Shown here: piece by piece, positions 6,439 through 20,444 of the stretch
Position numbering within the stretch: the first letter of the stretch is position 1
How the letters are laid out: the number at the start of each line of letters is the position of its first letter
Source of the DNA: Novacetimonas hansenii JCM 7643
Lineage (GTDB): Bacteria; Pseudomonadota; Alphaproteobacteria; Acetobacterales; Acetobacteraceae
Direction: 5' to 3'
DNA length: 38,209 bases
NCBI RefSeq assembly: GCF_000964405.1
Contig: NZ_BANE01000301.1
Coordinates: 1-38,209 of the forward strand
Translations under genes and position numbers: made by a program
The notes under the pieces: generated by a model
Database searches by the model: none
What the model was told of the DNA's origin: nothing
The model's input: the letters and a program-made list of their open reading frames with translations, nothing else

Positions 6439-6932
6439 CGTGTGATGGCGGGCGTGGGACGCGAATGTTGCTGCGTTTGGGGCGTGTCCTTGCGGTGGCT
6501 GTGCTGCCGGTGGTTGGCGGATGCGCAGGTGGCGGCAGTGGCAGCGGAAGCTGGCATGGCGCGTTGCAGTGCGCGCCCTATGCCCGGCAGGTGACGGGCG
6601 TGAACCTGCGTGGCGCGGCCGCAAGCTGGTGGGCGCAGGCGTCGGGGCAGTATCCACGCACCCATGCCCCACGCGCGGGCGCGGTGCTGGTGCTGCGCGC
6701 GACGGGGCGGCTGCCTGACGGGCATGTCGCGGTCGTGCGGTCCGTCCGTGGCCCGCGGGAGGTCGTTGTGGAGCAGGCGAACTGGGTGCCCGGCCGCATC
6801 GGGCGGGCGGACCCGGTCATTGATGTTTCGACTCGCAACGACTGGTCGCGGGTGCAGGTCTGGTGGAGCCCCATTCACGGCATGGGGAAAAGTGTCTATC
6901 CTGCATATGGTTTCATTCTGCCGCTCAGGTAA
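6417..6932 (+). CDS. CHAP-domain lipoprotein, putative peptidoglycan hydrolase
   Basis: A basic N-region, a hydrophobic core (LGRVLAVAVLPVV) and the lipobox VGGC predict export and acylation. The rest looks like a CHAP amidase/peptidase domain: a cysteine in LQCAPYARQ fits the nucleophile, the histidine in DGHVAVVRSV fits the base, and EQANWVPG fits the third polar position. Such domains cut amide bonds in peptidoglycan. At about 170 residues it is a single-domain protein. The start at 6417 has the best ribosome-binding site (GGAGG seven bases upstream) and overlaps recX by 22 bases; starts at 6435 (ATGA overlap) or 6465 would also retain the signal sequence. The family call comes from motif order; no binding module is visible. 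Confidence 0.75.
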   Translation: MAHEIRMTCDGGRGTRMLLRLGRVLAVAVLPVVGGCAGGGSGSGSWHGALQCAPYARQVTGVNLRGAAASWWAQASGQYPRTHAPRAGAVLVLRATGRLPDGHVAVVRSVRGPREVVVEQANWVPGRIGRADPVIDVSTRNDWSRVQVWWSPIHGMGKSVYPAYGFILPLR

Positions 6933-7105
6933 TGCGCGGGGGCGGGGCCGATATGGTATCGCGCGGCGCAAAAGCGGCGAGGCAATGCTTGCATGGACGG
7001 GTTCGTGCCCTCATGTGATGGGGGGACGTGCCTGGCGCATGCCATGGCGGCATGGGTCACGGGAAAAACAGCTTTTGCGTCGGTGACGCGGGAATCGAGG
7101 ATGTT

Positions 7106-7363
7106 ATGGGTAGCTTGAGCTGGGGACATTGGCTGATCGTTCTTGCGGTCGTGCTCGTGCTGTTCGGGGGCGGGGGCAAGATCAGCTCGCTGATGGGCGA
7201 CATGGCGCGCGGTATCAAGTCGTTCAAGAAGAACATGGCTGACGATGAACCCGTCACCCCGCCGCAGCAGGGCGCGGGCGGCCATATTTCAGGTCCGGCC
7301 ACGCCACAGCGCGACGCAAGCTTCAGCGAAAGCGGGCAGCCGTCGGGCCAGAACGTGAAATGA
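7106..7363 (+). CDS. tatA: Twin-arginine translocase subunit TatA
   Basis: TatA oligomers form the path through which the Tat system moves folded proteins across the inner membrane. The 85-residue protein has the family layout: a short N-terminus, one membrane helix ([16 protein letters not shown]), a glycine-containing hinge, an amphipathic helix ([18 protein letters not shown]) and a polar tail. The start at 7106 has GAGG upstream and gives the standard [10 protein letters not shown]-terminus. tatB and tatC, often adjacent, are not in this window. The gap upstream (6933-7105) shows nothing else. The overall pattern with K-S-F-K-K points to TatA/TatE and not TatB. Confidence 0.92.
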
Positions 7364-7436
7364 AAACGCGCGACGCCATCCCGCAGGGCGGGGGCATCGC
7401 GTGACGTGGTGAGTCGCGAAATTGCGTGAAGGTTCG

Positions 7437-8060
7437 ATGGACAAGGTTATTTCTTCCGACCCGCGCGCGGTCGCTGTCAGTGAGATCATCGCAGCCGGCC
7501 GTCGCATGGACCGCTTTGGCTGGGTGCCGGCAACGGCGGGGAACATCAGCCGCCGCCTGCCTGACGGGCTGATCGCGATCACGCGTTCGGGCGGGCACAA
7601 GGGCATGTTGACCCCCCATGGTGTGATCGAGGTCACGGCCGATGGCGCGCCCGTGCATGCAGGTGACCGGCCCAGCGCCGAAACCCTGCTGCATTGCCAG
7701 ATCTATGCAGCCTCGCCCCGTACCGGGGCTGTCCTGCACGGGCATTCCGTGGCCTCCACCGTGTTGTCGATGCTGGCGGGGGATTCGATCACCCTTGCGG
7801 GTTACGAAGTGCTCAAGGTGTTCGAGGGGCAGAAGACCCATGAGGCCAGCCTGCGCCTGCCGGTGTTCGACAATGATCAGGATATCGCACGCCTTGCCCG
7901 CGTCATTGCGCCGTACATGCCCGACATGCCGCTTGGCTATGTGATCCGTGGGCATGGTGTCTATGTCTGGGGGGATGACATGGACATGGCCCTTGCCCGG
8001 CTGGAGGGGCTCGAATTCCTTCTGGCGTGCGAGCTGGAGAAACGAAAGATCCGTCCATGA
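7437..8060 (+). CDS. mtnB: Methylthioribulose-1-phosphate dehydratase
   Basis: MtnB is a zinc-dependent class II aldolase-fold enzyme that removes water from 5-methylthioribulose-1-phosphate in the methionine salvage pathway. The 207-residue protein has the metal-binding H-x-H in VLHGHSVAST and a later histidine in VIRGHGVYVWGDD, plus the family start GRRMDRFGWVPATAGNIS. The start at 7437 has GAAGG eight bases upstream; an in-frame TTG at 7422 would add five residues. It opens a coupled set mtnB-mtnD-mtnC-ribF. The enzymes that make its substrate (MtnA with MtnK or MtnP/MtnN) are not nearby. Confidence 0.93.
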   Translation: MDKVISSDPRAVAVSEIIAAGRRMDRFGWVPATAGNISRRLPDGLIAITRSGGHKGMLTPHGVIEVTADGAPVHAGDRPSAETLLHCQIYAASPRTGAVLHGHSVASTVLSMLAGDSITLAGYEVLKVFEGQKTHEASLRLPVFDNDQDIARLARVIAPYMPDMPLGYVIRGHGVYVWGDDMDMALARLEGLEFLLACELEKRKIRP

Positions 8061-8626
8061 GCAGCCTTGCGCTTTATCGTGACGATGCGCCTGGCGCCCC
8101 GGTCGAACGCACGACAGATCCCGCGCGCATCGCGCAGGTGCTGCGTGCGATCGGTGTGCGTTTCGAACGGTGGGACAGCCCCGTCACCCCCGCACGCACC
8201 GCCCCGGCGGCGGAGGTGCTGGCGGCATATCGCCCCTATCTCGATCAGTTGATGGGGGAAACGGGTGCGGGGTCCGCCGATGTCATCAGCATGCATGGCG
8301 CGGGCGAGGGGTGGGACGCCACCCGGCGCAAATTCCTGTGCGAACATATCCATGACGAGGACGAGATCCGGTTTTTCGTGCATGGACAGGGTGATTTCGT
8401 CCTGCATACCGACGGGCGGGTGTTCAATGTGCGCTGCACGGCGGGGGACCTGATTTCGGTGCCTGCGGGCATCCCCCACTGGTTCGATGGCGGGGCTGTT
8501 CCCGATTTTGTGGCGTTGCGGGTCTTTACCAACCCCGATGGCTGGATCGCACGGTATACCGGCGATGATATCGCCACCCGTTTTGCCGCCGCCGATGATG
8601 ATAAAGGGTGTGAAATTGCCGTCTGA
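8057..8626 (+). CDS. mtnD: Acireductone dioxygenase
   Basis: MtnD is a cupin enzyme that splits acireductone with O2 to the 2-keto precursor of methionine plus formate when iron is bound; a nickel form gives an off-pathway product. The 189-residue protein carries the metal site H-x-H-x4-E in FLCEHIHDEDEIRFFV and the distal histidine in VPAGIPHWFD, both typical. The start at 8057 overlaps the mtnB stop as ATGA. The oxygen requirement fits a strictly aerobic organism. It is the second gene of the salvage set. Confidence 0.95.
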   Translation: MSSLALYRDDAPGAPVERTTDPARIAQVLRAIGVRFERWDSPVTPARTAPAAEVLAAYRPYLDQLMGETGAGSADVISMHGAGEGWDATRRKFLCEHIHDEDEIRFFVHGQGDFVLHTDGRVFNVRCTAGDLISVPAGIPHWFDGGAVPDFVALRVFTNPDGWIARYTGDDIATRFAAADDDKGCEIAV

Positions 8627-9347
8627 TCCCGTATCGCCCAATATCGCGCCCCTCATGCCACCGCGTGTCGCCCTGCTGGATATCGAGGGGACGACCATTC
8701 CTGTCTCCTTCGTTCATGACGTGCTGTTCCCCTATGCCCGGCAGGCGTTGCCGGGATTGCTGCGCGATCACGCGGACGACCCGCAGGTCCGCGCGCAGGT
8801 GGCGGAGATTGCCCGCCTTGCCCCCGGTGTGCCGCCGCTGGCGCAGCTTGAGGCCTGGATGGACCGTGACGAGAAGGTCGCCCCGCTCAAGGCGTTGCAG
8901 GGAATGGCATGGGCGCAGGGCTATCGCACGGGGCACCTCAGTGCGCGTCTTTATCCCGATGTGCTGCCCGTGCTGCGTCTGTGGGCGGCGGCCGGGGTTG
9001 TGCTTGCGGTCTATTCGTCCGGTTCGGTTGCGGCGCAGGAACTGATTTATGGCCATACGGATGACGGCGACGTCACCGACCTGTTTTCCGGCTTCTACGA
9101 TCTTGCCATGGGGGGGAAGCGCGTGGCGTCGAGCTATGCCAACATCGTGGCACGGGCCGGATGGGTGGCGGGCGACGTGCTGTTCCTGTCCGATGTGGTG
9201 GCCGAACTGGATGCGGCGGCGCAGGCGGGGCTGCGCACCTGCCAGATCGTGCGGCCCGAGGATGCGACATGTGCGGGCACCACGCACCCGGTGGCCGCAA
9301 CCCTGATCGCGGCAGGGCGGATGTTCGGACTGCCGGTGCCGGCATGA
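8616..9347 (+). CDS. mtnC: Enolase-phosphatase E1
   Basis: MtnC is a bifunctional haloacid-dehalogenase-fold enzyme that enolises and then dephosphorylates the diketo product of MtnB, giving acireductone for MtnD. Motif I is ALLDIEGTTIPVSFVHDVLF with the nucleophilic aspartate, motif II is VYSSGSVAAQ, and the closing acidic motif is LFLSDVVAELDAA. The start is uncertain: TTG at 8616 has AAGGG seven bases upstream and overlaps mtnD by 11 bases; ATG at 8595, 8598 or 8655 are alternatives, and 8655 (MPPRVALLDIEG) gives the most family-like N-terminus but lacks a ribosome-binding site. The stop overlaps the ribF start. Confidence 0.92.
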   Translation: MPSDPVSPNIAPLMPPRVALLDIEGTTIPVSFVHDVLFPYARQALPGLLRDHADDPQVRAQVAEIARLAPGVPPLAQLEAWMDRDEKVAPLKALQGMAWAQGYRTGHLSARLYPDVLPVLRLWAAAGVVLAVYSSGSVAAQELIYGHTDDGDVTDLFSGFYDLAMGGKRVASSYANIVARAGWVAGDVLFLSDVVAELDAAAQAGLRTCQIVRPEDATCAGTTHPVAATLIAAGRMFGLPVPA

Positions 9348-10285
9348 AGGCGCACCTTCACACCGACTGGCGGGACATTCCCGCCGCCGCGCGCGGTACG
9401 GTCGCCGCGCTGGGTAATTTCGACGGGGTGCATCTGGGCCATGCCCACCTGCTGCGCACGTTGCGGGCCGCGCGGCCCGAAGGGGAACTGGCGGTCGTGA
9501 CGTTCGAGCCACATCCGCGCGAACTGTTCCGCCCGCAGGATCCGCCCTTTCGCCTGACCCTGCCTGATGAACGGTTCTCAGCGCTTGTCGCGCTGGGTGT
9601 GCGGCACGTGTTCCAGATTCCCTTCACCCCTGAATTCAGTGCCATGAGTGCCGAGGAATTCGTAACCGGTGTCCTGCATGCGGGCCTTGGGGTGCGGCAT
9701 GTCGCCTGTGGCGCGGATTTCGCGTTCGGCCATCGCAGGCGCGGTGATGTTGCCTTCCTTGCGCAGGAGGCGCATGACCTTGGCATCGGGCTGACGGTCG
9801 TGCCTGCATTGTGCGATGCGGCGGGGCCATATTCCTCCACCCGTATCCGCCGCCTGCTGCAAGAAGGGTATCCCGAACGCGCGGCGGACGAACTCGGCCG
9901 TGCATGGTCAATCCGCGGGCAGGTCGAACATGGGGACAAGCGCGGGCGCCTGCTGGGTTTTCCCACTGCGAATATCGCGTTGGGCCGTCATCTGGAACCG
10001 GCGCGCGGGGTTTATGCCGTCAGTGTGCGCATGGGCGACGGGCGCGTCTGTCCCGGTGTTGCCAATATCGGCCGACGTCCCACCATCAATGACGGGCAGG
10101 TCAGCCGGCTGGAGGTCCACCTGCTGGATTTCGACGGGGACCTGTACGGGCAGACCCTGTCGGTTGCGCTGCATACTCTGCTGCGGGAGGAGCGTCGTTT
10201 CGACGGGCTTGACGCCCTGCGTGCGCAGATCGCGCGCGATACGCAGGCCGCACGTGATTACCTGCTGGCGACAGGCGGGGCATGA
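9344..10285 (+). CDS. ribF: Riboflavin kinase / FAD synthetase
   Basis: RibF converts riboflavin to FMN and then FAD. The N-terminal nucleotidyltransferase domain shows GNFDGVHLGHAHLLRTLR (the H-x-G-H class motif), VTFEPHPRELF and SSTRIRRLLQEG; the C-terminal kinase domain shows RGRLLGFPTANI and then VANIGRRPTIND, with a late glutamate-containing segment VHLLDFDGDLYG. Length (313) is normal. The start at 9344 overlaps the mtnC stop as ATGA, tying it to the salvage genes, while ileS follows 133 bases later; ribF-ileS-lspA is a widespread bacterial order. Confidence 0.96.
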   Translation: MKAHLHTDWRDIPAAARGTVAALGNFDGVHLGHAHLLRTLRAARPEGELAVVTFEPHPRELFRPQDPPFRLTLPDERFSALVALGVRHVFQIPFTPEFSAMSAEEFVTGVLHAGLGVRHVACGADFAFGHRRRGDVAFLAQEAHDLGIGLTVVPALCDAAGPYSSTRIRRLLQEGYPERAADELGRAWSIRGQVEHGDKRGRLLGFPTANIALGRHLEPARGVYAVSVRMGDGRVCPGVANIGRRPTINDGQVSRLEVHLLDFDGDLYGQTLSVALHTLLREERRFDGLDALRAQIARDTQAARDYLLATGGA

Positions 10286-10418
10286 CGGGTGGGGCGTGTC
10301 GGTGTCGCGAAAGCTTGACCGCAGGCCCGCACCCTCCCCATAAGGTTGCGTTGCGGTTGTACGGGGCGTGTCCCGTCCCTCCATGTTTCTTTGGATCAAG
10401 CAGTCAGAAAACAGGGTC

Positions 10419-13292
10419 ATGACCGAGTCAAAACCACAGGATCTCTATCGGGAGACGGTGTTCCTGCCCACCACCTCCTTTCCCATGCGCGGCAGCCTGC
10501 CGAAGCGGGAGCCCGAGATGCTGGCGCGCTGGGCCGAACAAAAGCTTGACGACAGCCTGCTTGAACAGGCGCAGGGGCGTCAGGTCTTCATGCTGCATGA
10601 CGGGCCGCCCTATGCCAATGGCCATCTCCATATCGGCCATGCCCTGAACAAGATCCTCAAGGACGTCATCAACCGCGCACACCGCATGTCGGGCTATGGC
10701 ATCCATTACGTGCCGGGCTGGGACTGTCACGGCCTGCCGATCGAATGGAAGATCGAGGAAGAATACCGCAAGCGCGGACAGGACAAGGACAGCGTGCCCG
10801 TCCTGCAGTTCCGTGCCGAATGCCGTGCCTATGCCCAGAAATGGCTGGATATCCAGGCGGCCGAGTTCCGCCGCCTTGGCGTGCAGGCGGAATGGGCGCG
10901 CCGTTACGCCACGATGGATTTCTCGTCCGAGGCGGCAATCGCGGGGGAGATCGGCAGGTTCCTGCTCAATGGCCTGCTGTATCGCGGCCTGCGTCCGGTG
11001 ATGTGGAGCCCGGTGGAGAAAACCGCCCTGGCCGAGGCGGAGATCGAATATCGCGACCATGAATCCACCGCGATCCATGTCGCCTTTCCCGTCATCCATG
11101 ATCCCACCCCGGCCCATGCGCTTGAAGATGTGTCGGCGGTCATCTGGACTACGACGCCGTGGACCATTCCCGCCAATCGCGCCATCGCCTATGGCCCGGA
11201 CATCACCTATGCCGTGGTGCGGATGGATGACGTGGCCGATGGCGCCCTGCTGGAACCGGAATCGAAGGTGCTGGTGGCGGAAGACCTGATCGAGCCGTTC
11301 TGCAAGGCGGCAGGGGTCAATGCGCATCATGTGCTCTATACCCTGCCCGGTCATGCGCTGAAGGGGGCGGTATGCGCCCATCCCCTGCGTGGTCAGGGGT
11401 ATGATTTCGACGTGCCGGTCCTGCCGGGCGAGCATGTCACGACCGAGGCGGGCACGGGCCTGGTCCATACCGCCCCCGCGCATGGCGAGGACGATTTCAA
11501 CCTTGGCCGCCAGCACGGGCTGGAGATCACCGAACTGGTGATGGATGACGGTCGTTATGCCGACTGGGTGCCCCTGTTCGCGGGGCAGCACGTCTTTAAG
11601 GCGGCGGAGCCGGTCTGCACCGCGCTGGAGGACGTCATGCGTCATGCCGCGCAGGAGGGACAGGCCCCGGCCGGGCTGGTGGCGCGTGCGACGCTGGTTC
11701 ATTCCTATCCGCATTCATGGCGTTCGCGCGCGCCGATCATCTATCGCGCGACACCGCAATGGTTCATCCGCATGGATGGCGAAGGGGCGCTGCGCAAGCG
11801 TGCGCTCGCGGCGCTTGATGACGTGACGTTCGTCCCGGCGCAGTCGCGTAATCGCCTGACCTCCATGGTGGAAGGGCGTCCCGACTGGTGCATCAGCCGC
11901 CAGCGCGCCTGGGGGGTGCCGATCGCCGTGTTTGTGGAGAAGCGCACGGGCGAGGTCCTGCGTGATGCCGCCGTGATGAAGCGCGTGGTCGATGCATTCG
12001 CGGCCGAGGGCGCGGACGCGTGGTATGCCTCGCCCGCGTCGCGCTTCCTTGGCGAAGGGCGCAACCCCGATGATTACGAACAGGTGTTCGATATCGTCGA
12101 TGTGTGGTTCGAAAGCGGATCGACCCATGCCTTTGTGCTGGGCCATGGCGACATGCCGTTTCCTGCGGATGTCTACCTCGAAGGGTCGGACCAGCATCGT
12201 GGCTGGTTCCAGTCCTCTCTGCTCGAAAGCGTGGGGACGAAGGGCATCGCGCCCTTCCGCACGCTGGTGACGAATGGCTTTGTCCTTGATGAGCAGGGCC
12301 GCAAGATGTCCAAGTCGCTGGGCAATGTCATTGCGCCGCAGGACGTCAATGATTCGCTTGGCGCGGATATTCTGCGCCTGTGGGTCATGAATTCCGACAC
12401 CAACGAAGACCTGCGCATCGGCAAGGATATCCTCAAACAGCAGGGCGAGCTTTATCGCCGCCTGCGCAATACGCTGCGCTGGCTGCTTGGTGCGCTGGAT
12501 GGCTTTGCCGAGGACGAGCGCGTCGCTTATGACGACCTGCCCGAACTCGAACGCTGGGTGCTGCACCGTCTGGGCGAACTGGGCGGGCTGGTGGCGCGCG
12601 CGGTGGAGACGCATGAATGGGTGGGGGTCTATCCCGCGCTGCATGGTTTCTGCGCCGCCGACCTTTCGGCGTTCTATTTCGACGTGCGCAAGGATACGAT
12701 CTATTGCGATGCGGCCAGCAGCCTGAAGCGCCGCGCCGCGCGCACGGTTCTGGATCACCTGCATCGCTGTCTGTGCGCGTGGCTGGCCCCGGTGCTGGTC
12801 TTTACGGCAGAGGAAGCATGGCTGGCGCGGCCGGGCACGACGCAGAGTATCCATCTCCAGCCCTTTCCCGACATTCCGGCGCAATGGCACCAGCCCGCGC
12901 TGGAGGATCGCTGGGCCACGCTGCGCGGGGTGCGGCGCATCATCACGACCGAGATCGAGGCCGCGCGTCGTGACGGGGTTGTCGGATCTTCCCTGCAGGC
13001 CGCAGTGACGCTGCCCCTGTCAGAGGATGAGGCCACGGCCTTTGGCGATGTGGACTGGTGCGAACTCGCGATCGTGTCACAGGTTGACATAAGTATCGAG
13101 GCGGGCAGCGCGTCGATCTATCTCGACACATCCGGCGATGCGCAGGGCGCGCCGCATGGCGGCCCGGTCATCCGTGCGGCGACGGGGCATAAATGCGCGC
13201 GCTGCTGGAAGGTGCTGGAGGAGGTGGGCACCGTGCCCGCCCATCCGCAACTGTGCCTGCGATGTGCCGATGTGGTGCAGGGCCGGGCGTGA
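10419..13292 (+). CDS. ileS: Isoleucyl-tRNA synthetase
   Basis: This class I synthetase charges tRNA-Ile and edits misactivated valine. The 957-residue protein has the HIGH motif in PPYANGHLHIGHALNK, the editing domain (WTTTPWTIPANRAIAYG and GTGLVHTAPAHGEDD), the KMSKSLGN motif, and a C-terminal zinc finger (CARCW and CLRCAD). The start at 10419 (MTESKPQDLYRETVFLP) matches the family N-terminus; an in-frame ATG at 10383 would add 12 unlikely residues. The zinc-finger C-terminus is typical of the bacterial housekeeping type. Its stop overlaps a GTG that could serve as an alternative lspA start. Confidence 0.98.
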   Translation: MTESKPQDLYRETVFLPTTSFPMRGSLPKREPEMLARWAEQKLDDSLLEQAQGRQVFMLHDGPPYANGHLHIGHALNKILKDVINRAHRMSGYGIHYVPGWDCHGLPIEWKIEEEYRKRGQDKDSVPVLQFRAECRAYAQKWLDIQAAEFRRLGVQAEWARRYATMDFSSEAAIAGEIGRFLLNGLLYRGLRPVMWSPVEKTALAEAEIEYRDHESTAIHVAFPVIHDPTPAHALEDVSAVIWTTTPWTIPANRAIAYGPDITYAVVRMDDVADGALLEPESKVLVAEDLIEPFCKAAGVNAHHVLYTLPGHALKGAVCAHPLRGQGYDFDVPVLPGEHVTTEAGTGLVHTAPAHGEDDFNLGRQHGLEITELVMDDGRYADWVPLFAGQHVFKAAEPVCTALEDVMRHAAQEGQAPAGLVARATLVHSYPHSWRSRAPIIYRATPQWFIRMDGEGALRKRALAALDDVTFVPAQSRNRLTSMVEGRPDWCISRQRAWGVPIAVFVEKRTGEVLRDAAVMKRVVDAFAAEGADAWYASPASRFLGEGRNPDDYEQVFDIVDVWFESGSTHAFVLGHGDMPFPADVYLEGSDQHRGWFQSSLLESVGTKGIAPFRTLVTNGFVLDEQGRKMSKSLGNVIAPQDVNDSLGADILRLWVMNSDTNEDLRIGKDILKQQGELYRRLRNTLRWLLGALDGFAEDERVAYDDLPELERWVLHRLGELGGLVARAVETHEWVGVYPALHGFCAADLSAFYFDVRKDTIYCDAASSLKRRAARTVLDHLHRCLCAWLAPVLVFTAEEAWLARPGTTQSIHLQPFPDIPAQWHQPALEDRWATLRGVRRIITTEIEAARRDGVVGSSLQAAVTLPLSEDEATAFGDVDWCELAIVSQVDISIEAGSASIYLDTSGDAQGAPHGGPVIRAATGHKCARCWKVLEEVGTVPAHPQLCLRCADVVQGRA

Positions 13293-13303
13293 GTTCGTCC
13301 GTC

Positions 13304-13825
13304 ATGTCAGGATCTGGCATGTTGGAACCCACGCCGCGACGTCGGCGCAGGGCCAGCAAAATGGGCTGGACGGTCCTGTTCTTCTGTCTGGTCCTTGCCC
13401 TGGACCAGGCCACGAAGCACTGGATGCTGCACGGTTATGATCTGCCGGGACGGCAGAGTGTCGCCCTGTTGCCGGGGCTGAATTTCACCATGGTCTGGAA
13501 CCATGCCATCACCTTCGGGATGTTGGGCGGTGCAGGCAGTGCCGGTCGGGTCATCTTTTCGGTCGTGGCGCTGTTTATTGTCGTGCTCCTGGGGCTGTGG
13601 GCGTCGCGTACGCCGCGCCCGTGGGTGGCGGGCGCGCTGGGTGCGATCATGGGCGGGGCCGTGGGCAATGTCATAGACCGGCTGCAGTTCGGGGCCGTGG
13701 TGGATTTTGTACACCTGCATGCGTACGGGTGGTCATGGCCGGTGTTCAACCTTGCCGATGCGGCGATAGATTGTGGCGTGGCCATCCTGATTATTGATAA
13801 TCTTCTCGATCGCGACAGGGGATAG
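13304..13825 (+). CDS. lspA: Lipoprotein signal peptidase II
   Basis: LspA is an inner-membrane aspartic protease that cuts signal peptides from acylated prolipoproteins. Four membrane segments are visible. Conserved sites include MVWNHAITFGML, GNVIDRLQFGAVVDFV with the first catalytic aspartate, and FNLADAAIDCGV with the second. The start is uncertain: GTG at 13289 overlaps the ileS stop, ATG at 13304 follows it closely, and ATG at 13361 sits right before the first membrane helix. It follows ileS as in many bacteria. Substrates nearby include the lipoproteins at 550, 6417, 13883 and 21468. Confidence 0.95.
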   Translation: MSGSGMLEPTPRRRRRASKMGWTVLFFCLVLALDQATKHWMLHGYDLPGRQSVALLPGLNFTMVWNHAITFGMLGGAGSAGRVIFSVVALFIVVLLGLWASRTPRPWVAGALGAIMGGAVGNVIDRLQFGAVVDFVHLHAYGWSWPVFNLADAAIDCGVAILIIDNLLDRDRG

Positions 13826-14430: not shown

Positions 14431-14524
14431 TCCTGATTTTCCCTGATACGAAGGTGCGTCCGCGCCCCTGCACCCTTGCTGCGCATGCTGGCGGTGTGGG
14501 GGTGGGGCGTCCATGATGCCACCT

Positions 14525-16426
14525 ATGACAGAACATCCCCCCATCGCGGACCGTCCCGTGATCCGTCGCCTGTCCGAACAGGTCGTCAACCGCATTGCGG
14601 CGGGCGAGGTCATTGAACGACCGGCGGCGGCACTCAAGGAACTGGTGGAAAATGCGCTCGATTCCGGGGCGCAGCGGATTTCGGTCGCATTGCTGCATGG
14701 TGGCATTGAACGTATCGAGGTGATCGACGATGGCTGCGGCATGACGCCCGATGACCTGCGCCTTGCGGTGGAGCGTCATTGCACGTCAAAGCTGTCGGAC
14801 GAGACGCTGGTGCGGATCGCGACCCTTGGTTTCCGTGGGGAGGCGCTGCCGTCGATCGGGGCTGCGGCACGTCTTAACGTGACCTCACGCACGCGGGGGG
14901 CGCCCACCGCATGGTCCATCCGCGTCGAAGGGGGCCGGGTCGACGAACCGCGTCCCTGTGCCGGGGTGGTGGGCACCTGTGTCGTGGTGGAAGACCTGTT
15001 TTTTGCAACCCCCGCGCGACGCAAGTTCCTCAAGAGTGCGCGGGTGGAGTCGGGCCATGCGGAAAACACCGTCCGCCGCCTTGCCCTGTCGGCCCCGCAT
15101 GTGGCCTTCCGCCTGCAGTTCGATCAACGTGTCGTCCTTGACCTTCCGGCGCAGGACATGGCGGCGCGGGCTGCGGCCATCCTGGATGCCGGGCAGGCCG
15201 ATGGCCTGATCCCGGTGGAGGCGGAGCGCGGGGATCTGCGCCTGTCGGGCTATATCTGTGCGCCTTCGGTGCATCGTGCGACGGCCAATGGGCAACTGCT
15301 GCTGGTGAACGGGCGTCCGGTGGTGGACCCGGTGCTGCGTACGGCGGTGCGTGTGGCGTATCGCAACGTCATGGAACATGGCCGCCACGCGGTCGTGGCC
15401 CTGTCATTGCAGATCCCGCCAGAGCAGGTGGACGTCAATGTCCATCCCGCCAAGACCGAACTGCGTTACGCCGATGCGGCGGCCGTGCGTGCGCTGGTGA
15501 TTGGTGCGCTGGGCCGGGCATTGGGAATCGGTGCGGGCGTCGCTGGCGTGCGGCCCGGCCTGTTACAGTCGCGGCCCGCAGGTGGGGCGCGCATCTGGTA
15601 TCCACCTGAACCAGCATCAGCCCCGCCGGTATCGCCGGTGCAGATGTCGCCATTTCCGCCGGATGGGGATGATGGACCGCCGATGGCCGAAGGCGTCGCC
15701 GAACGCCGCCTGCCGCTGATGGATATCGCACCGGGCGCGCGCCAGGTGGTCAGATGGTCAGAGGCGGATATCCCCGCGGTGCAAGGGGCTGTGTCCTCCC
15801 CTGCGCCTAATCCCGAACCCGCGGCTGATTTCCCCCTTGGCGCTGCCGTGGCGCAGGTTCTGGGCACCTATATCCTTGCGGAAACCGCGCGGGGGGAACT
15901 TGTTCTGGTGGATCAGCATGCGGCCCATGAACGCCTGACGCACGAACGCTTGCGTGCGCAGTATCTGGGCGGTGAGATCCGTGCGCAGCGCCTGCTACTG
16001 CCCGAGGTGGTGAACATGCCCAGGGGGCAGGCCGACCTGCTGATGTCCTTTGCCGATACGCTGTCAGCCCTCGGACTCGAAATTGATGCCTTTGGTGGCG
16101 ATGCGGTCATGGTGCGCACCGTGCCAGCCCTGCTGGGTGGGGGGGATGCGGCCGCGATGCTGCGTGACCTGGCAGAAGAACTGGCGGAGGATGAACTTCT
16201 GGCCCCGGCGCAGGCCCAGGCGGTCGATGGGCGGCTGGATGCGATCATCGCACGCATGGCCTGTCATGGCAGTGTGCGGGCGGGCCGACGCCTTACACAC
16301 GAGGAAATGAACGCCCTGCTGCGTGACATGGAACGAACCCCGCGCGCCGGGACCTGTTCACATGGTCGGCCCACGTGGCTGAAGCTGGAAAAAGGCGATC
16401 TGGAGCGGATGTTCGGCCGTCGCTGA
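14525..16426 (+). CDS. mutL: DNA mismatch repair protein MutL (endonuclease type)
   Basis: MutL links mismatch recognition by MutS to strand removal. The N-terminal GHKL ATPase shows ELVENALDSGAQRI, DDGCGMTPDDL, HCTSKLSDE and GFRGEALPSIGA. After a Pro-rich linker (about residues 340-440) the C-terminal domain carries DQHAAHERLTHERL, MACHGSVRAG, TCSHGRPTW and a final FGRR. This set matches the metal-binding nicking site of endonuclease MutL proteins, as expected where MutH is absent. The start at 14525 (MTEHPPIADR) is one of two close ATGs (14513 is four codons upstream). mutS is not in the window. Confidence 0.95.
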   Translation: MTEHPPIADRPVIRRLSEQVVNRIAAGEVIERPAAALKELVENALDSGAQRISVALLHGGIERIEVIDDGCGMTPDDLRLAVERHCTSKLSDETLVRIATLGFRGEALPSIGAAARLNVTSRTRGAPTAWSIRVEGGRVDEPRPCAGVVGTCVVVEDLFFATPARRKFLKSARVESGHAENTVRRLALSAPHVAFRLQFDQRVVLDLPAQDMAARAAAILDAGQADGLIPVEAERGDLRLSGYICAPSVHRATANGQLLLVNGRPVVDPVLRTAVRVAYRNVMEHGRHAVVALSLQIPPEQVDVNVHPAKTELRYADAAAVRALVIGALGRALGIGAGVAGVRPGLLQSRPAGGARIWYPPEPASAPPVSPVQMSPFPPDGDDGPPMAEGVAERRLPLMDIAPGARQVVRWSEADIPAVQGAVSSPAPNPEPAADFPLGAAVAQVLGTYILAETARGELVLVDQHAAHERLTHERLRAQYLGGEIRAQRLLLPEVVNMPRGQADLLMSFADTLSALGLEIDAFGGDAVMVRTVPALLGGGDAAAMLRDLAEELAEDELLAPAQAQAVDGRLDAIIARMACHGSVRAGRRLTHEEMNALLRDMERTPRAGTCSHGRPTWLKLEKGDLERMFGRR

Positions 16427-16578
16427 GGTTGCTGCGCATGCTGTCATCATGATGCGTAAGAAGGGGGTGCAGGGGGGCTGGGGCCACCTGCTCGGCAGAA
16501 CGTGAGCGGCAGGCGGCTGGATTTCATTTCCGTAATGTCCCTAAGTTCGGTCCATCTTTCCATGGCGATGAGACTGAC

Positions 16579-18096
16579 GTGCACCCGATCCTGCTTTCCC
16601 TCGTCACATATCTGCCCCTAGGGGGCGTTCTGGCCATCATGCTGACGCGAGGTACGACCGAAGCGGTCGAGACCTCTGCGCGGTGGGTGGCGCTGTGGAC
16701 CAGTGCGATCGTGTTCGTCCTGTCCGTGGTCATGTGGGTGCAGTTCGATCCCACCCATATCGGGTTGCAGTTCGAGCAGCGTGCGACATGGGCGTCCGCC
16801 TTTGGCGTGTCGTACCATGCTGGTGTGGACGGCATCAGCCTGATGTTCGTGCTGCTTTCTACCTTCCTGACCCCGCTTGCGATTATTGGCGGATGGAAAT
16901 TGGTGAATACGCGGGTGCGTGATTACATGGTGGCGATGCTGCTGCTGGAAACCACGCTGATTGGCCTGTTTTCCGCGCAGGACCTCGTGCTGTTCTATGT
17001 TTTCTATGAAGCGACGCTCCTGCCCGGCAGCCTGATGATCGGGATCTGGGGTGGGCCGAAACGTGTCTGGGCTTCGTTGCAGTTCTTCCTGTTCACGTTC
17101 GGTGGGTCGCTGTTCATGCTGATCGCGCTGCTGGTGATGTGGAACGTGGCGGGCACCACCGATATCCCGGCCTTGCAGCATGCCTCCTTCTCCCACGCGA
17201 TGCAGGGCTGGTTGCTGGCGGGGTTCATCCTGGCATTTGGGGTGAAGCTGCCGCTGTTTCCGCTGCATGCATGGCTGCCCGATGCCTATACCGAGGCCCC
17301 GACCCCTGCCTCGGTCATGTTGTCGGGCGTACTGTCAAAGGCCGGGGCCTATGGCCTGCTGCGCTTTGGCGTGCTGATGTTCCCGGATGCGGCGCGGGTG
17401 TTTGCGCCCTATATCCTGACGCTGGGCGTTGTGGCCGTTATTTATGCCGCGATCATCGCGCTGGCGCAGACGGACATGAAACGGGTGATCGCCTATTCCT
17501 CCTTTTCCCATATGGGGGTGATCGCGATCGGGCTGTTCACCCTGACGCCAGAGGGAATCGACGGCGCGATCTTCCAGATGCTGTCCCATGGTATCGTGAT
17601 CGCGGCACTGTTCTTTTGTGTCTCTGCCGTGTCATGGCGTGCGGAAACACGTGAGATTTCGGCCTTTGCCGGGGTCGCGCACAAAATGCCTGTGCTGGCG
17701 ACGCTGACGATGTTGTTCGTGATGGCCAATATCGGCCTGCCGGGTACAGGGGCGTTCGTGGGCGAACTGCTGGTGATGGTCGGTGCGATCCATGTGTCCT
17801 TCTGGCTGGCGTTCCTTGGCGGGTCGAGCATGATCCTCGGGGCGGTCTATATGCTGGTTCTGTATCGCCGCGTGATGTTCGGGCAGGGGGCAGGGGGCAT
17901 GGTCGCCCTCCTGCGGGACCTGACTGGCCCCGAACTTGCGGTGCTGGTGCCCCTGGCGGTGGTGACGTTATGGATGGGTATCCATCCGGGTACTTTCCTG
18001 CGGGTGTTCAACCCCACGGTCAGCAGCCTTGTGCAACCCGCCCCGGTCGTTGCATCCGACAGTATGGCCCCCGTGGCGCAGACTGCGGCCGGCTAG
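16579..18096 (+). CDS. nuoM: NADH-quinone oxidoreductase subunit M (solitary)
   Basis: NuoM is one of the three antiporter-like, proton-pumping membrane subunits of respiratory complex I. The 505-residue protein is full length with about 14 membrane helices. Key polar positions are present: the glutamate in LFYVFYEATLLPG and the lysine in FGVKLPLFPLHAWLPDAYTE, followed by APTPASVMLSGVLSKAGAYG and DMKRVIAYSSFSHMGV. The start is a GTG at 16579 (residues HPILLSLVTYLPLG), since nearby ATGs are out of frame; the ribosome-binding site is weak. No other nuo gene lies in the window: mutL is upstream and parE converges downstream. A related antiporter family (Mrp or Hyf-like) is less likely given the NuoM-like motifs. 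Confidence 0.9.
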   Translation: MHPILLSLVTYLPLGGVLAIMLTRGTTEAVETSARWVALWTSAIVFVLSVVMWVQFDPTHIGLQFEQRATWASAFGVSYHAGVDGISLMFVLLSTFLTPLAIIGGWKLVNTRVRDYMVAMLLLETTLIGLFSAQDLVLFYVFYEATLLPGSLMIGIWGGPKRVWASLQFFLFTFGGSLFMLIALLVMWNVAGTTDIPALQHASFSHAMQGWLLAGFILAFGVKLPLFPLHAWLPDAYTEAPTPASVMLSGVLSKAGAYGLLRFGVLMFPDAARVFAPYILTLGVVAVIYAAIIALAQTDMKRVIAYSSFSHMGVIAIGLFTLTPEGIDGAIFQMLSHGIVIAALFFCVSAVSWRAETREISAFAGVAHKMPVLATLTMLFVMANIGLPGTGAFVGELLVMVGAIHVSFWLAFLGGSSMILGAVYMLVLYRRVMFGQGAGGMVALLRDLTGPELAVLVPLAVVTLWMGIHPGTFLRVFNPTVSSLVQPAPVVASDSMAPVAQTAAG

Positions 18097-18413
18097 GGCT
18101 GGGCGGGATTGCCCCGCCTTTCCCTGAGCACAGGTGGGAGCGGCCCGGAAAAGAGATGTCGGTAACGCAATAAAAACAAAGAATGTTTTTGAAAAATCTG
18201 GTCTTGGAAAGTGTCCAGAGGCGTTGCTTTTTTGGGGATGGCCGCGCGTAAGGACTTTCGCCCTGTCCTCCCAATGGGGCGTTTTCAAACAGTCCAGAAA
18301 GAAAAAGGACGCCACCACCATAGTATCGGTGGGGCGTCCTTTTCAGTTTTCGTGCAAACAGTTTCCCCAGACTGCCTTCCATTTGGCATGGGAATAGAAG
18401 GTGGGCTGTTCCC
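18097..18413. other. nuoM-parE convergent spacer
   Basis: This 317-base gap between convergent genes contains no credible gene. Its central part (about 18160-18235) is rich in A and T runs, with a short TCTGG/CCAGA dyad and a CTTTTTT run that vaguely recalls the dispersed repeat at the window's left end, but the match is too weak to call. A strong bidirectional terminator occupies 18303-18343. Confidence 0.6.
18303..18343. terminator. Bidirectional terminator, nuoM/parE
   Basis: Eleven-base arms AAAAGGACGCC (18303-18313) and GGCGTCCTTTT (18333-18343) pair perfectly, and five more inner pairs (CCACC/GGTGG) extend the stem. A-run on one side and T-run on the other let it work for both convergent genes. 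Confidence 0.8.
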
Positions 18414-20444
18414 TCAGATATCGAGGTTTTCCACCTGTCGGGCATGTTCCTGAATGAACTGGAAACGCAGCTCAGGCTTGCGTCCCATCAGGTGTTCGAC
18501 CCGTTCGCGTGTCAGGTTGCTGTCTTCGATCGGGGTGACGACCTTCAGCAGCGTCCTGTGCTTCGGGTCCATGGTTGTCTGCTTCAGGTCCGATGGTGGC
18601 ATTTCGCCAAGCCCCTTGAAGCGTGAGACCTCGACCTTTGCATTGGGCTTGAACTCGCGCTTCAGCCTGCGTTCACGATCACCATCGTTCATCGCATAGA
18701 CGGTCTTGCCCCCCTGCGTCAGGCGATAGAGCGGCGGTTGTGCAAGGTAGAGATGCCCGCCACGGATCAGCGCCGGCAGTTCACGATAGAAGAACGTCAT
18801 CAGCAGTGACGCGATATGCGCGCCATCCACGTCGGCGTCGGTCATGATGATGATACGGCCATAGCGCAGGCGGCTGGCGTCGAAATGTTCGCCAATGCCA
18901 CAGCCAAGTGCCTCCACAAGGTCGCGCAGTTCCTGGTTCGCGCGCAATTTCTCTGCCGAGGCGCTGGCGACGTTCAGGATCTTGCCACGCAGGGGCAGGA
19001 CGGCCTGTGTCTCGCGATTACGGGCCTGTTTGGCCGACCCACCGGCCGAGTCCCCCTCCACAAGGAAGATTTCCGTCTCGGCGGCATTTTCACGGGTGCA
19101 GTCCGTAAGCTTCCCCGGCAGGCGCAGGCGGCGTGTCGCACTCTTGCGCGGGGTGTCCTTCATTTCCTTGCGGCGCAGGCGTTCTTCGGCGCGTTCGATC
19201 ACGACCGCAAGCAGGTTATCCGCCTGTGGCGGGTTGCCCGCCAGCCAGTGGTCGAACCGGTCGCGCAGCGCCGTTTCCACCAGGCGGCTTGCTTCCCCGC
19301 TGGTCAGCTTTTCCTTGGTCTGGCCCTGGAATTGCGGGTCGCGGATAAAGACCGACAGCTTGGCAGAGATAAGGCCCATGATGTCATCGGCATTGATCGT
19401 GGCCGCGCGCTTGTTGGATCGCTGTTCGCCCCAGTTGCGCAGCCCCTTGGTCAATGCGGTGCGAAAGCCGGTTTCATGTGTGCCGCCATTGGGGGTCGGG
19501 ATGGTGTTGCAGTATGACGAAAGCCCTGTCGTCCCGCGTTCGACAAACGCGATGGCCCATTCCATGCGTCCGGTGCTTTCGCCATCCACGGCCGTCGGCA
19601 GGTCCGCATCCCCGGCCCAGATGTCGGTCAGCAGCGCGGTATTGCCCAGTTCGTCACGCAGGCTGTCGGCCAGGCCCCCGGGAAAATGCAGGACGGATTC
19701 CGCCGGGACGTCCGTGCCCTTTATCAGGGCCGGATCGCATGACCAGCGGATGGTGACGCCCCGGAACAGGAATGCCTTGGACCGGCACAGGCGGTACAGG
19801 CGCAGGGGCGAGAAATGGAGCTTTCCGAAAATCTGCGGGTCGGGGACAAAGCGGATCTGCGTGCCGCGCCTGTTCTGCGTCGGGCCGACCTCTTCGATCG
19901 GGGCAAGAGGGATGCCGCGTTCATAAACCTGCTGCCACACTGTCCGGTCGCGCGCGATCTCCACCTCCATCCGGGCGGACAGGGCGTTGACCACCGACGA
20001 TCCCACGCCATGCAGGCCACCGGATGTGGCATAGGCCTTGCCCGAGAACTTGCCCCCCGCATGCAGCGTCGTCAGGATGACCTCCAGCGCTGAACGCTGC
20101 GGGAACTTGGGGTGCGGGTCAACCGGGATGCCACGCCCGTTATCACGGATCGTCAGCCAGTTCCCTGCCTCCAGCGACACGTCGATGACAGAGGCATGGC
20201 CCGCCACGGCTTCGTCCATCGCGTTATCAAGGATTTCGGACGCCAGGTGATGATAGGCGGTTTCATCCGTGCCGCCGATATACATGCCAGGACGCCGACG
20301 CACGGGTTCAAGCCCCTCCAGCACCTCGATCGCACTGGCGTCGTAATCTTCGCTCCCGGCCCGTGGGGCGTCAGCAGGGGCGCGGGATTTGCGTGCCTGT
20401 GTCCGGCGTTGGGCGGCGGGCTTGGAGAAAAGATCGTCGTTCAT
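18414..20444 (-). CDS. parE: DNA topoisomerase IV subunit B
   Basis: ParE is the ATPase subunit of topoisomerase IV, which unlinks daughter chromosomes. The GHKL ATPase motifs are SEILDNAMDEAVAG, IRDNGRGIPVD and GGLHGVGSSVVNALSAR; the TOPRIM domain shows LVEGDSAGGSAKQARNR, PLRGKILN and MTDADVDGAHIA. At 676 residues and without the large C-terminal insert of many GyrB proteins, ParE is the better call; the KAYATSGGLHGVGSSVVNAL region also favours it. parC is not in the window. On the minus strand a perfect TTGACA lies at 20481-20476, but no good -10 follows before the start codon, so the promoter is unresolved. Confidence 0.95.
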   Translation of the reverse strand: MNDDLFSKPAAQRRTQARKSRAPADAPRAGSEDYDASAIEVLEGLEPVRRRPGMYIGGTDETAYHHLASEILDNAMDEAVAGHASVIDVSLEAGNWLTIRDNGRGIPVDPHPKFPQRSALEVILTTLHAGGKFSGKAYATSGGLHGVGSSVVNALSARMEVEIARDRTVWQQVYERGIPLAPIEEVGPTQNRRGTQIRFVPDPQIFGKLHFSPLRLYRLCRSKAFLFRGVTIRWSCDPALIKGTDVPAESVLHFPGGLADSLRDELGNTALLTDIWAGDADLPTAVDGESTGRMEWAIAFVERGTTGLSSYCNTIPTPNGGTHETGFRTALTKGLRNWGEQRSNKRAATINADDIMGLISAKLSVFIRDPQFQGQTKEKLTSGEASRLVETALRDRFDHWLAGNPPQADNLLAVVIERAEERLRRKEMKDTPRKSATRRLRLPGKLTDCTRENAAETEIFLVEGDSAGGSAKQARNRETQAVLPLRGKILNVASASAEKLRANQELRDLVEALGCGIGEHFDASRLRYGRIIIMTDADVDGAHIASLLMTFFYRELPALIRGGHLYLAQPPLYRLTQGGKTVYAMNDGDRERRLKREFKPNAKVEVSRFKGLGEMPPSDLKQTTMDPKHRTLLKVVTPIEDSNLTRERVEHLMGRKPELRFQFIQEHARQVENLDI

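Follow-up and report, generated by a model that had tools for sequence, protein, structure and literature searches.

The nuoM locus

The window is the whole stretch of 38,209 nucleotides that was analyzed and corresponds to an entire contig (C167) of the genome of Novacetimonas hansenii JCM 7643. It carries a nuoM gene (16579..18096, + strand) with a GTG start codon, encoding a protein of 505 amino acids, the antiporter-like subunit M of the membrane arm of complex I. The reading frame 16579-18096 is uninterrupted and full length, and its start context is kept across nine aligned loci. The upstream neighbor, at 152 bases, is mutL (14513..16426, + strand; NF000953, 715 bits for a cut-off of 693), and the downstream neighbor, convergent and 317 bases away, is parE (18414..20444, - strand; TIGR01055, 737.5 bits for a cut-off of 723.35). 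The other scanned neighbors are a class I tRNA synthetase, which we take to be ileS, a DUF3035 protein, an Rrf2 regulator, and a PALP enzyme, and some small ORFs nearby have no family match. Partner genes of the Mrp, Hyf, or DabB type were not found among these scanned neighbors.

The protein is recognized by the TIGR01972 model with 551.3 bits (cut-off 263.8). The top single model is NF004499 (subunit M), with 582.3 bits, marginally below its cut-off of 585. Among the best 25 of 73 rows, MrpD-type models do not exceed 174.7 bits, the hydrogenase 4 subunit B model does not exceed 124.7 bits, and no DabB model occurs. Judged by this protein, the closest named relatives among the matches listed belong to Gluconacetobacter entanii (96%) and Novacetimonas cocois (94%), which points to a Novacetimonas-like acetic acid bacterium as host.

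By role, the proton channel residues of NuoM are a glutamate, two lysines, and a second glutamate. All four are present in the window protein, with checked codons on the + strand, and their conservation was followed in 18 NuoM rows from genomes having nuoM apart from adjacent nuoL and nuoN (the split form, see below) and in 25 other NuoM rows. Glu144 (17008..17010) and Lys223 (17245..17247) are each found in 18/18 split rows and in all 25 others. Lys254 (17338..17340) is found in 18/18 split rows and in 23 of the 25 others (Asn in two), and Glu396 (17764..17766) in 18/18 split rows and in 24 of the 25 others (a gap in one). The solved NuoM chain 8qby_M resembles the window protein over residues 5-502 (452 bits), and its Glu/Lys/Lys/Glu residues align with Glu144, Lys223, Lys254, and Glu396. 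We take this chain to be that of Paracoccus denitrificans, the gene of which is presumably located in the nuo operon. A remnant or pseudogene is ruled out by the open frame together with the retained channel residues. The full-length nuoM between mutL and parE described in a preliminary description of this DNA is borne out by the ORF and by the TIGR01972, NF000953, and TIGR01055 scores, as is its view of an intact protein, channel Glu and Lys included, with no sign of decay.

Complex I genes in the rest of the genome

The preliminary description had remarked that no other complex I gene is nearby, and had weighed two possibilities: that the nuo operon is split, or that this is an additional NuoM-like antiporter subunit having a different partner. 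On C167, no PF00361 protein was found besides NuoM. Genome-wide, PF00361 has four matches: contig C341 has NuoL and NuoN, C167 has NuoM, and C426 has a weak match. C341 carries the other nuo genes, with NCBIfam matches to nuoA, B, C, D, E, F, G, H, I, J, K, L, and N; nuoA and nuoE are below the curated cut-offs and the remaining genes exceed at least one cut-off. On this contig, nuoL is directly followed by nuoN with 24 bases between the ORFs, so that there is no space for nuoM, and profile searches of the genome did not find nuoM in the C341 cluster.

The search of the genome for nuoL, nuoN, and a second nuoM, as recommended in the preliminary description, thus located the first two and found no second NuoM in the assembly, a draft of 467 contigs from which an unassembled copy could be missing, although its completeness is given as 100. 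No protein other than the window copy matches NuoM at an E-value of 1e-90, and among those listed the window copy alone exceeds the NuoM family cut-off; the option of a split operon is borne out. With no other NuoM found in the genome, this protein most likely serves as subunit M of the single complex I of the cell. A complex I carrying an additional NuoM is called a “2M” complex I; with one NuoM in the genome, the present case lies outside this class.

The other option, that the gene encodes an extra NuoM-like antiporter subunit having another partner, of the Mrp, hydrogenase-4, or DabB type, is very improbable. The PF00361 domain is shared with such subunits and a divergent hydrogenase-4-like cluster exists on C426. 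However, NuoM models score 551-582 bits against at most 175 bits for MrpD and 125 bits for hydrogenase 4 subunit B, the scanned neighbors are housekeeping genes, and the C426 cluster sits on a different contig and has its own antiporter-like gene. Moreover, the M subunit would then be missing here and in 12 other split genomes that have no second L-M stretch.

Distribution of the split arrangement

A separate search for each of NuoM, NuoN, and NuoL was run over 150 family genomes, and the positions of the matches were compared, using the best 150 matches for NuoM (the match of G124 lies outside them) and complete lists for NuoN and NuoL. Among the matches listed, the split form, with L and N adjacent and M elsewhere, occurs in 18/150 genomes, including this one. 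M adjoins L and/or N in 114/150, L, M, and N are all absent from 13/150, and five genomes were left unassigned from the lists (G108, G124, G146, G159, and G165). Five split genomes (G016, G067, G087, G148, and G161) have M and N on one contig, at a distance of 0.44-1.37 Mb.

The surroundings of the gene are also conserved. In the 27 named loci (L028-L054), which comprise the acetic acid bacterial entries among the 80 best loci listed and belong to Acetobacter, Komagataeibacter, Gluconacetobacter, and Novacetimonas, mutL is upstream of nuoM in all 27 and parE downstream in 24. The order mutL, nuoM, parE is found in 12/18 split genomes with no other mapped gene between, parE following at up to about 2 kb where coordinates were printed. 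As for the other six, mutL alone is visible at the nuoM loci of G069 and G112, parE alone at that of G158, several kilobases lie on one or both sides of nuoM in G083 and G098, and neither mutL nor parE was found in 18 kb around the G143 gene. An assembly artefact or a contamination, suggested by a draft in 467 contigs, is practically excluded by the same arrangement in 27/27 named loci of four genera and by the five genomes named above, where one long contig carries both M and N at a great distance from each other.

According to the preliminary description, an arrangement that is standard in the genus and has a known explanation would refute its observation. The arrangement is indeed common to the acetic acid bacteria examined, and nuoM is also listed separately for Acetobacter pasteurianus. 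It is ordinary for its clade, and the gene is real and intact and looks functional.

Phylogeny of NuoM, NuoL, NuoN, and MutL

First trees of NuoM, NuoL, and NuoN included G142, which has a very long branch; the final trees were calculated without it. In these, all 18 split genomes group as a single clade, with NuoM (96/89), with NuoL (100/100), and with NuoN (100/98). Because the clade is recovered in three trees, a single ancient relocation of nuoM would be the likeliest account of the split genomes. The sister group of the clade is G122/G166/G095 in the NuoM tree (99/96) and, weakly, in the NuoL tree (52/27). The NuoN tree disagrees with both and places G080/G156 in this position (97/93).

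The MutL tree comprises 46 rows, two of the 18 split genomes having no mutL in the stretch. In this tree, one group (SH-aLRT 99) unites the 16 rows of split genomes with 12 genomes that have a divergent complex I only and nine genomes without complex I. Within it, the 21 genomes devoid of the ancestral operon are a nested clade (98), the nesting fork itself reaching only 80. Among the matches listed, NuoM of these 21 genomes is absent (9) or lies in a divergent L-M stretch (12). In the fetched flanks of at most 1.5 kb, nuoM was beside mutL at none of 30 mutL loci (the 21 operon-less genomes and nine others). In this nested clade, where the ancestral operon is missing the solitary nuoM is missing too; as it is confined to one clade, this joint loss counts as one event.

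Rate of change of NuoM

Distances were compared in 42 genomes, leaving out G007, which has no NuoN, and three lone NuoM rows; two of the 861 pairs were too close and were dropped. Where both genomes have an operonic nuoM (276 pairs, counting the outgroups), the NuoM/NuoL distance ratio has a median of 0.83; the median is 1.56 when a split genome is paired with an operonic one (432 pairs) and 1.18 inside the split set (151 pairs). The stem of the split clade measures 0.64 (a part shared with the lone copy of G126, see below) plus 0.09 for NuoM, vs. 0.26 for NuoL and 0.14 for NuoN. The comparison of conserved columns supports a faster change of NuoM only in part. NuoM retains 90/133 of them and NuoL 169/197 (p 0.0001), whereas with NuoN, which retains 90/117, the difference is not significant (p 0.12).

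Positions conserved in the other rows and fixed otherwise in the split form number five in NuoM, one in NuoL, and three in NuoN. Those of NuoM are 143 (F to Y), 227 (W to F), 249 (A to S), 255 (M to A), and 291 (S to A), among which 143 and 255 adjoin the channel residues Glu144 and Lys254. By distances and stem lengths, the relocation branch appears to have brought more change to NuoM than to NuoL or NuoN, a point that we did not find in the available portions of the literature.

The region upstream of nuoM

A conserved element of 19 bases (16491..16509, + strand) sits 88 bases before the nuoM start and may be a promoter or regulatory site of this gene. Allowing at most four substitutions, 26/27 named loci have it at the corresponding position, as do 18/19 loci outside the set from which it was derived. 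It is found in 1/10 deeper-branching loci. Fifteen further matches occur elsewhere in the 27 loci, on both strands. The element was not found before nuoA with at most five substitutions, L108 having only about 300 bases in front of nuoA. A search of 16200-18500 for a consensus (sigma-70-like) promoter and a terminator found none, 0.8 and 2.8 being expected by shuffling. A promoter of its own for nuoM is plausible.

The non-coding block to which the element belongs (16491-16523) is conserved in Novacetimonas and Komagataeibacter; Acetobacter and Gluconacetobacter retain its first 19 bases in part.

Published records of a separate nuoM

The split is already on record, listed in passing in an Acetobacter genome paper, the consulted part of which gives nuoM of Acetobacter pasteurianus SKU1108 (APT_00690) separately from the 13 locus tags of a nuoA-nuoN operon (PMC5158111). 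For strain 386B, the corresponding part of another article assigns to complex I the genes APA386B_556-567 plus a separate APA386B_2247, the latter not named (PMC3751514); it is perhaps nuoM. In the parts seen of these two A. pasteurianus records, locus tags are only listed and the split is not discussed (PMC5158111, PMC3751514). Likewise, in the excerpts returned by literature searches, no publication discussing the split as such was found. The partly available text of a proteome study of A. pasteurianus shows NuoM (fig_HN.1610) falling and rising along with the other Nuo proteins (fig_HN.3342-3354). The printed ratios are 0.62, 0.33, 2.16, and 1.78 for NuoM and 0.93, 0.31, 2.22, and 2.12 for NuoN; the NuoM values track those of NuoN and of NuoB-NuoI (PMC10742644). 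In N. hansenii, the nuo operon is repressed on glycerol, and the sections seen of that study make no separate mention of nuoM (PMC12405394). The term “nuo” was not found in the accessible text of PMC4013037.

According to the portion seen of a comparative study, acetic acid bacteria have one common complex I operon, a further one having been gained in Asaia and in Gluconacetobacter diazotrophicus and none being present in G. oxydans. The complex I tree published there was built on nuoHIJKLN and leaves nuoM out (PMC4596401). Like the first, the second complex I of Asaia and of one G. diazotrophicus operon is a type I NADH dehydrogenase; unlike the window system, it was judged to be horizontally acquired (PMC4596401). 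In part of another text, nuoM of G. diazotrophicus is placed within an operon written with nuoCD (PMC9368920), which is taken here to be that of its second complex I. In our data set, the divergent clusters of G011, G025, G028, and G032 have nuoM beside nuoL, with 35-43% identity to NuoL and NuoM of the window genome (L116-L118, L121), and are taken to be second complexes I of the Asaia type.

Relocation of nuoM or replacement by a second copy

The gene content, the single copy in the assembly, the channel residues, and a split shared by one whole clade are established. Very probably, the window gene encodes the single NuoM of this cell's ancestral complex I, relocated, and assembling between NuoL and NuoN as a proton-pumping subunit. 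In an ancestor of acetic acid bacteria, nuoM would have left the nuoL-nuoM-nuoN stretch and landed after mutL, and the operon would have closed, with nuoL now abutting nuoN. NuoM would still be produced, presumably from its own promoter, would take the middle antiporter-like position, flanked by NuoL and NuoN, and would pump protons there. As a counterpoint, the greater divergence of NuoM compared with NuoL and NuoN also fits a changed role.

An alternative is that the solitary gene is a diverged second NuoM, a paralogue or a transferred copy, perhaps once an extra pump, that replaced a lost operonic copy. Its present function would overlap with that of a relocated gene and only the origin would differ. 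We consider this origin unlikely, even if two sets of data speak for it. First, the NuoM stem is long (0.64 plus 0.09, vs. 0.26 for NuoL and 0.14 for NuoN). Second, three genomes of genus g124 (G126, G182, and G224), outside the split clade, carry two NuoM each. In G126, one NuoM is inside an L-M-N stretch and the other is solitary (L136 9127-10656, + strand), with GST, TPR-repeat, and tRNA-synthetase-like genes as neighbors. The latter is sister to the solitary NuoM of acetic acid bacteria (100/100), and its origin by duplication within the genome is rejected, since a tree uniting both G126 copies has a p-AU of 2.5e-49. It is possible that this copy comes from transfer or is an older extra copy. 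Against a second NuoM, the solitary clade is nested in the operonic NuoM of the family, beside G122, G166, and G095 (99/96), and a tree uniting all 22 operonic and other lone rows of the family is rejected (p-AU 0.004, for a group chosen after the tree was seen). Relocation together with faster change and a transfer to g124 accounts for the same data.

If a second copy did take over, a doubtful proposition, the complex I of acetic acid bacteria would have a replacement middle pump, an extra solitary NuoM, a state still found in g124, having displaced the operonic gene. The changed residues beside the channel Glu and Lys might then alter the middle proton channel. An operonic NuoM together with a solitary sister copy in g124 was not found in the parts of the literature available. 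Both the faster evolution of NuoM and this sister copy merit a closer look.

These bacteria offer a natural case of a core complex I subunit supplied from a distant locus, stable across a whole clade. This agrees with a 2022 report by Oppermann in which nuo gene order is said not to be essential for assembly in Escherichia coli. The split also explains the 13-gene nuo clusters of acetic acid bacteria, which annotation might label incomplete. In addition, the split clade provides a natural setting in which to ask if a subunit evolves faster once its gene has left the operon, with NuoL and NuoN as internal controls.

Other lone copies and divergent clusters

Lone NuoM of another kind are found in G014 (L135 9053-10570, + strand) and G128 (L137 9065-10645, - strand), both genomes having an operonic NuoM as well. 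These two copies are sister to the operonic NuoM of G128 and have Asn in place of Lys254. Five of the 18 split genomes (G003, G069, G087, G112, and G149) possess an additional L-M-N stretch, of divergent type.

Finally, the stretch 8000-21614 of C426 (positions 6736-13557 therein, + strand) holds a divergent hydrogenase-4/complex I-like cluster. It encodes an antiporter-like protein (63 bits to hydrogenase 4 subunit B), a protein resembling NuoD or a hydrogenase large subunit (87 bits), a NuoB-like protein (101 bits), and two proteins of 321 and 420 amino acids without a family match. All score below the curated NCBIfam cut-offs, and two are above Pfam cut-offs.
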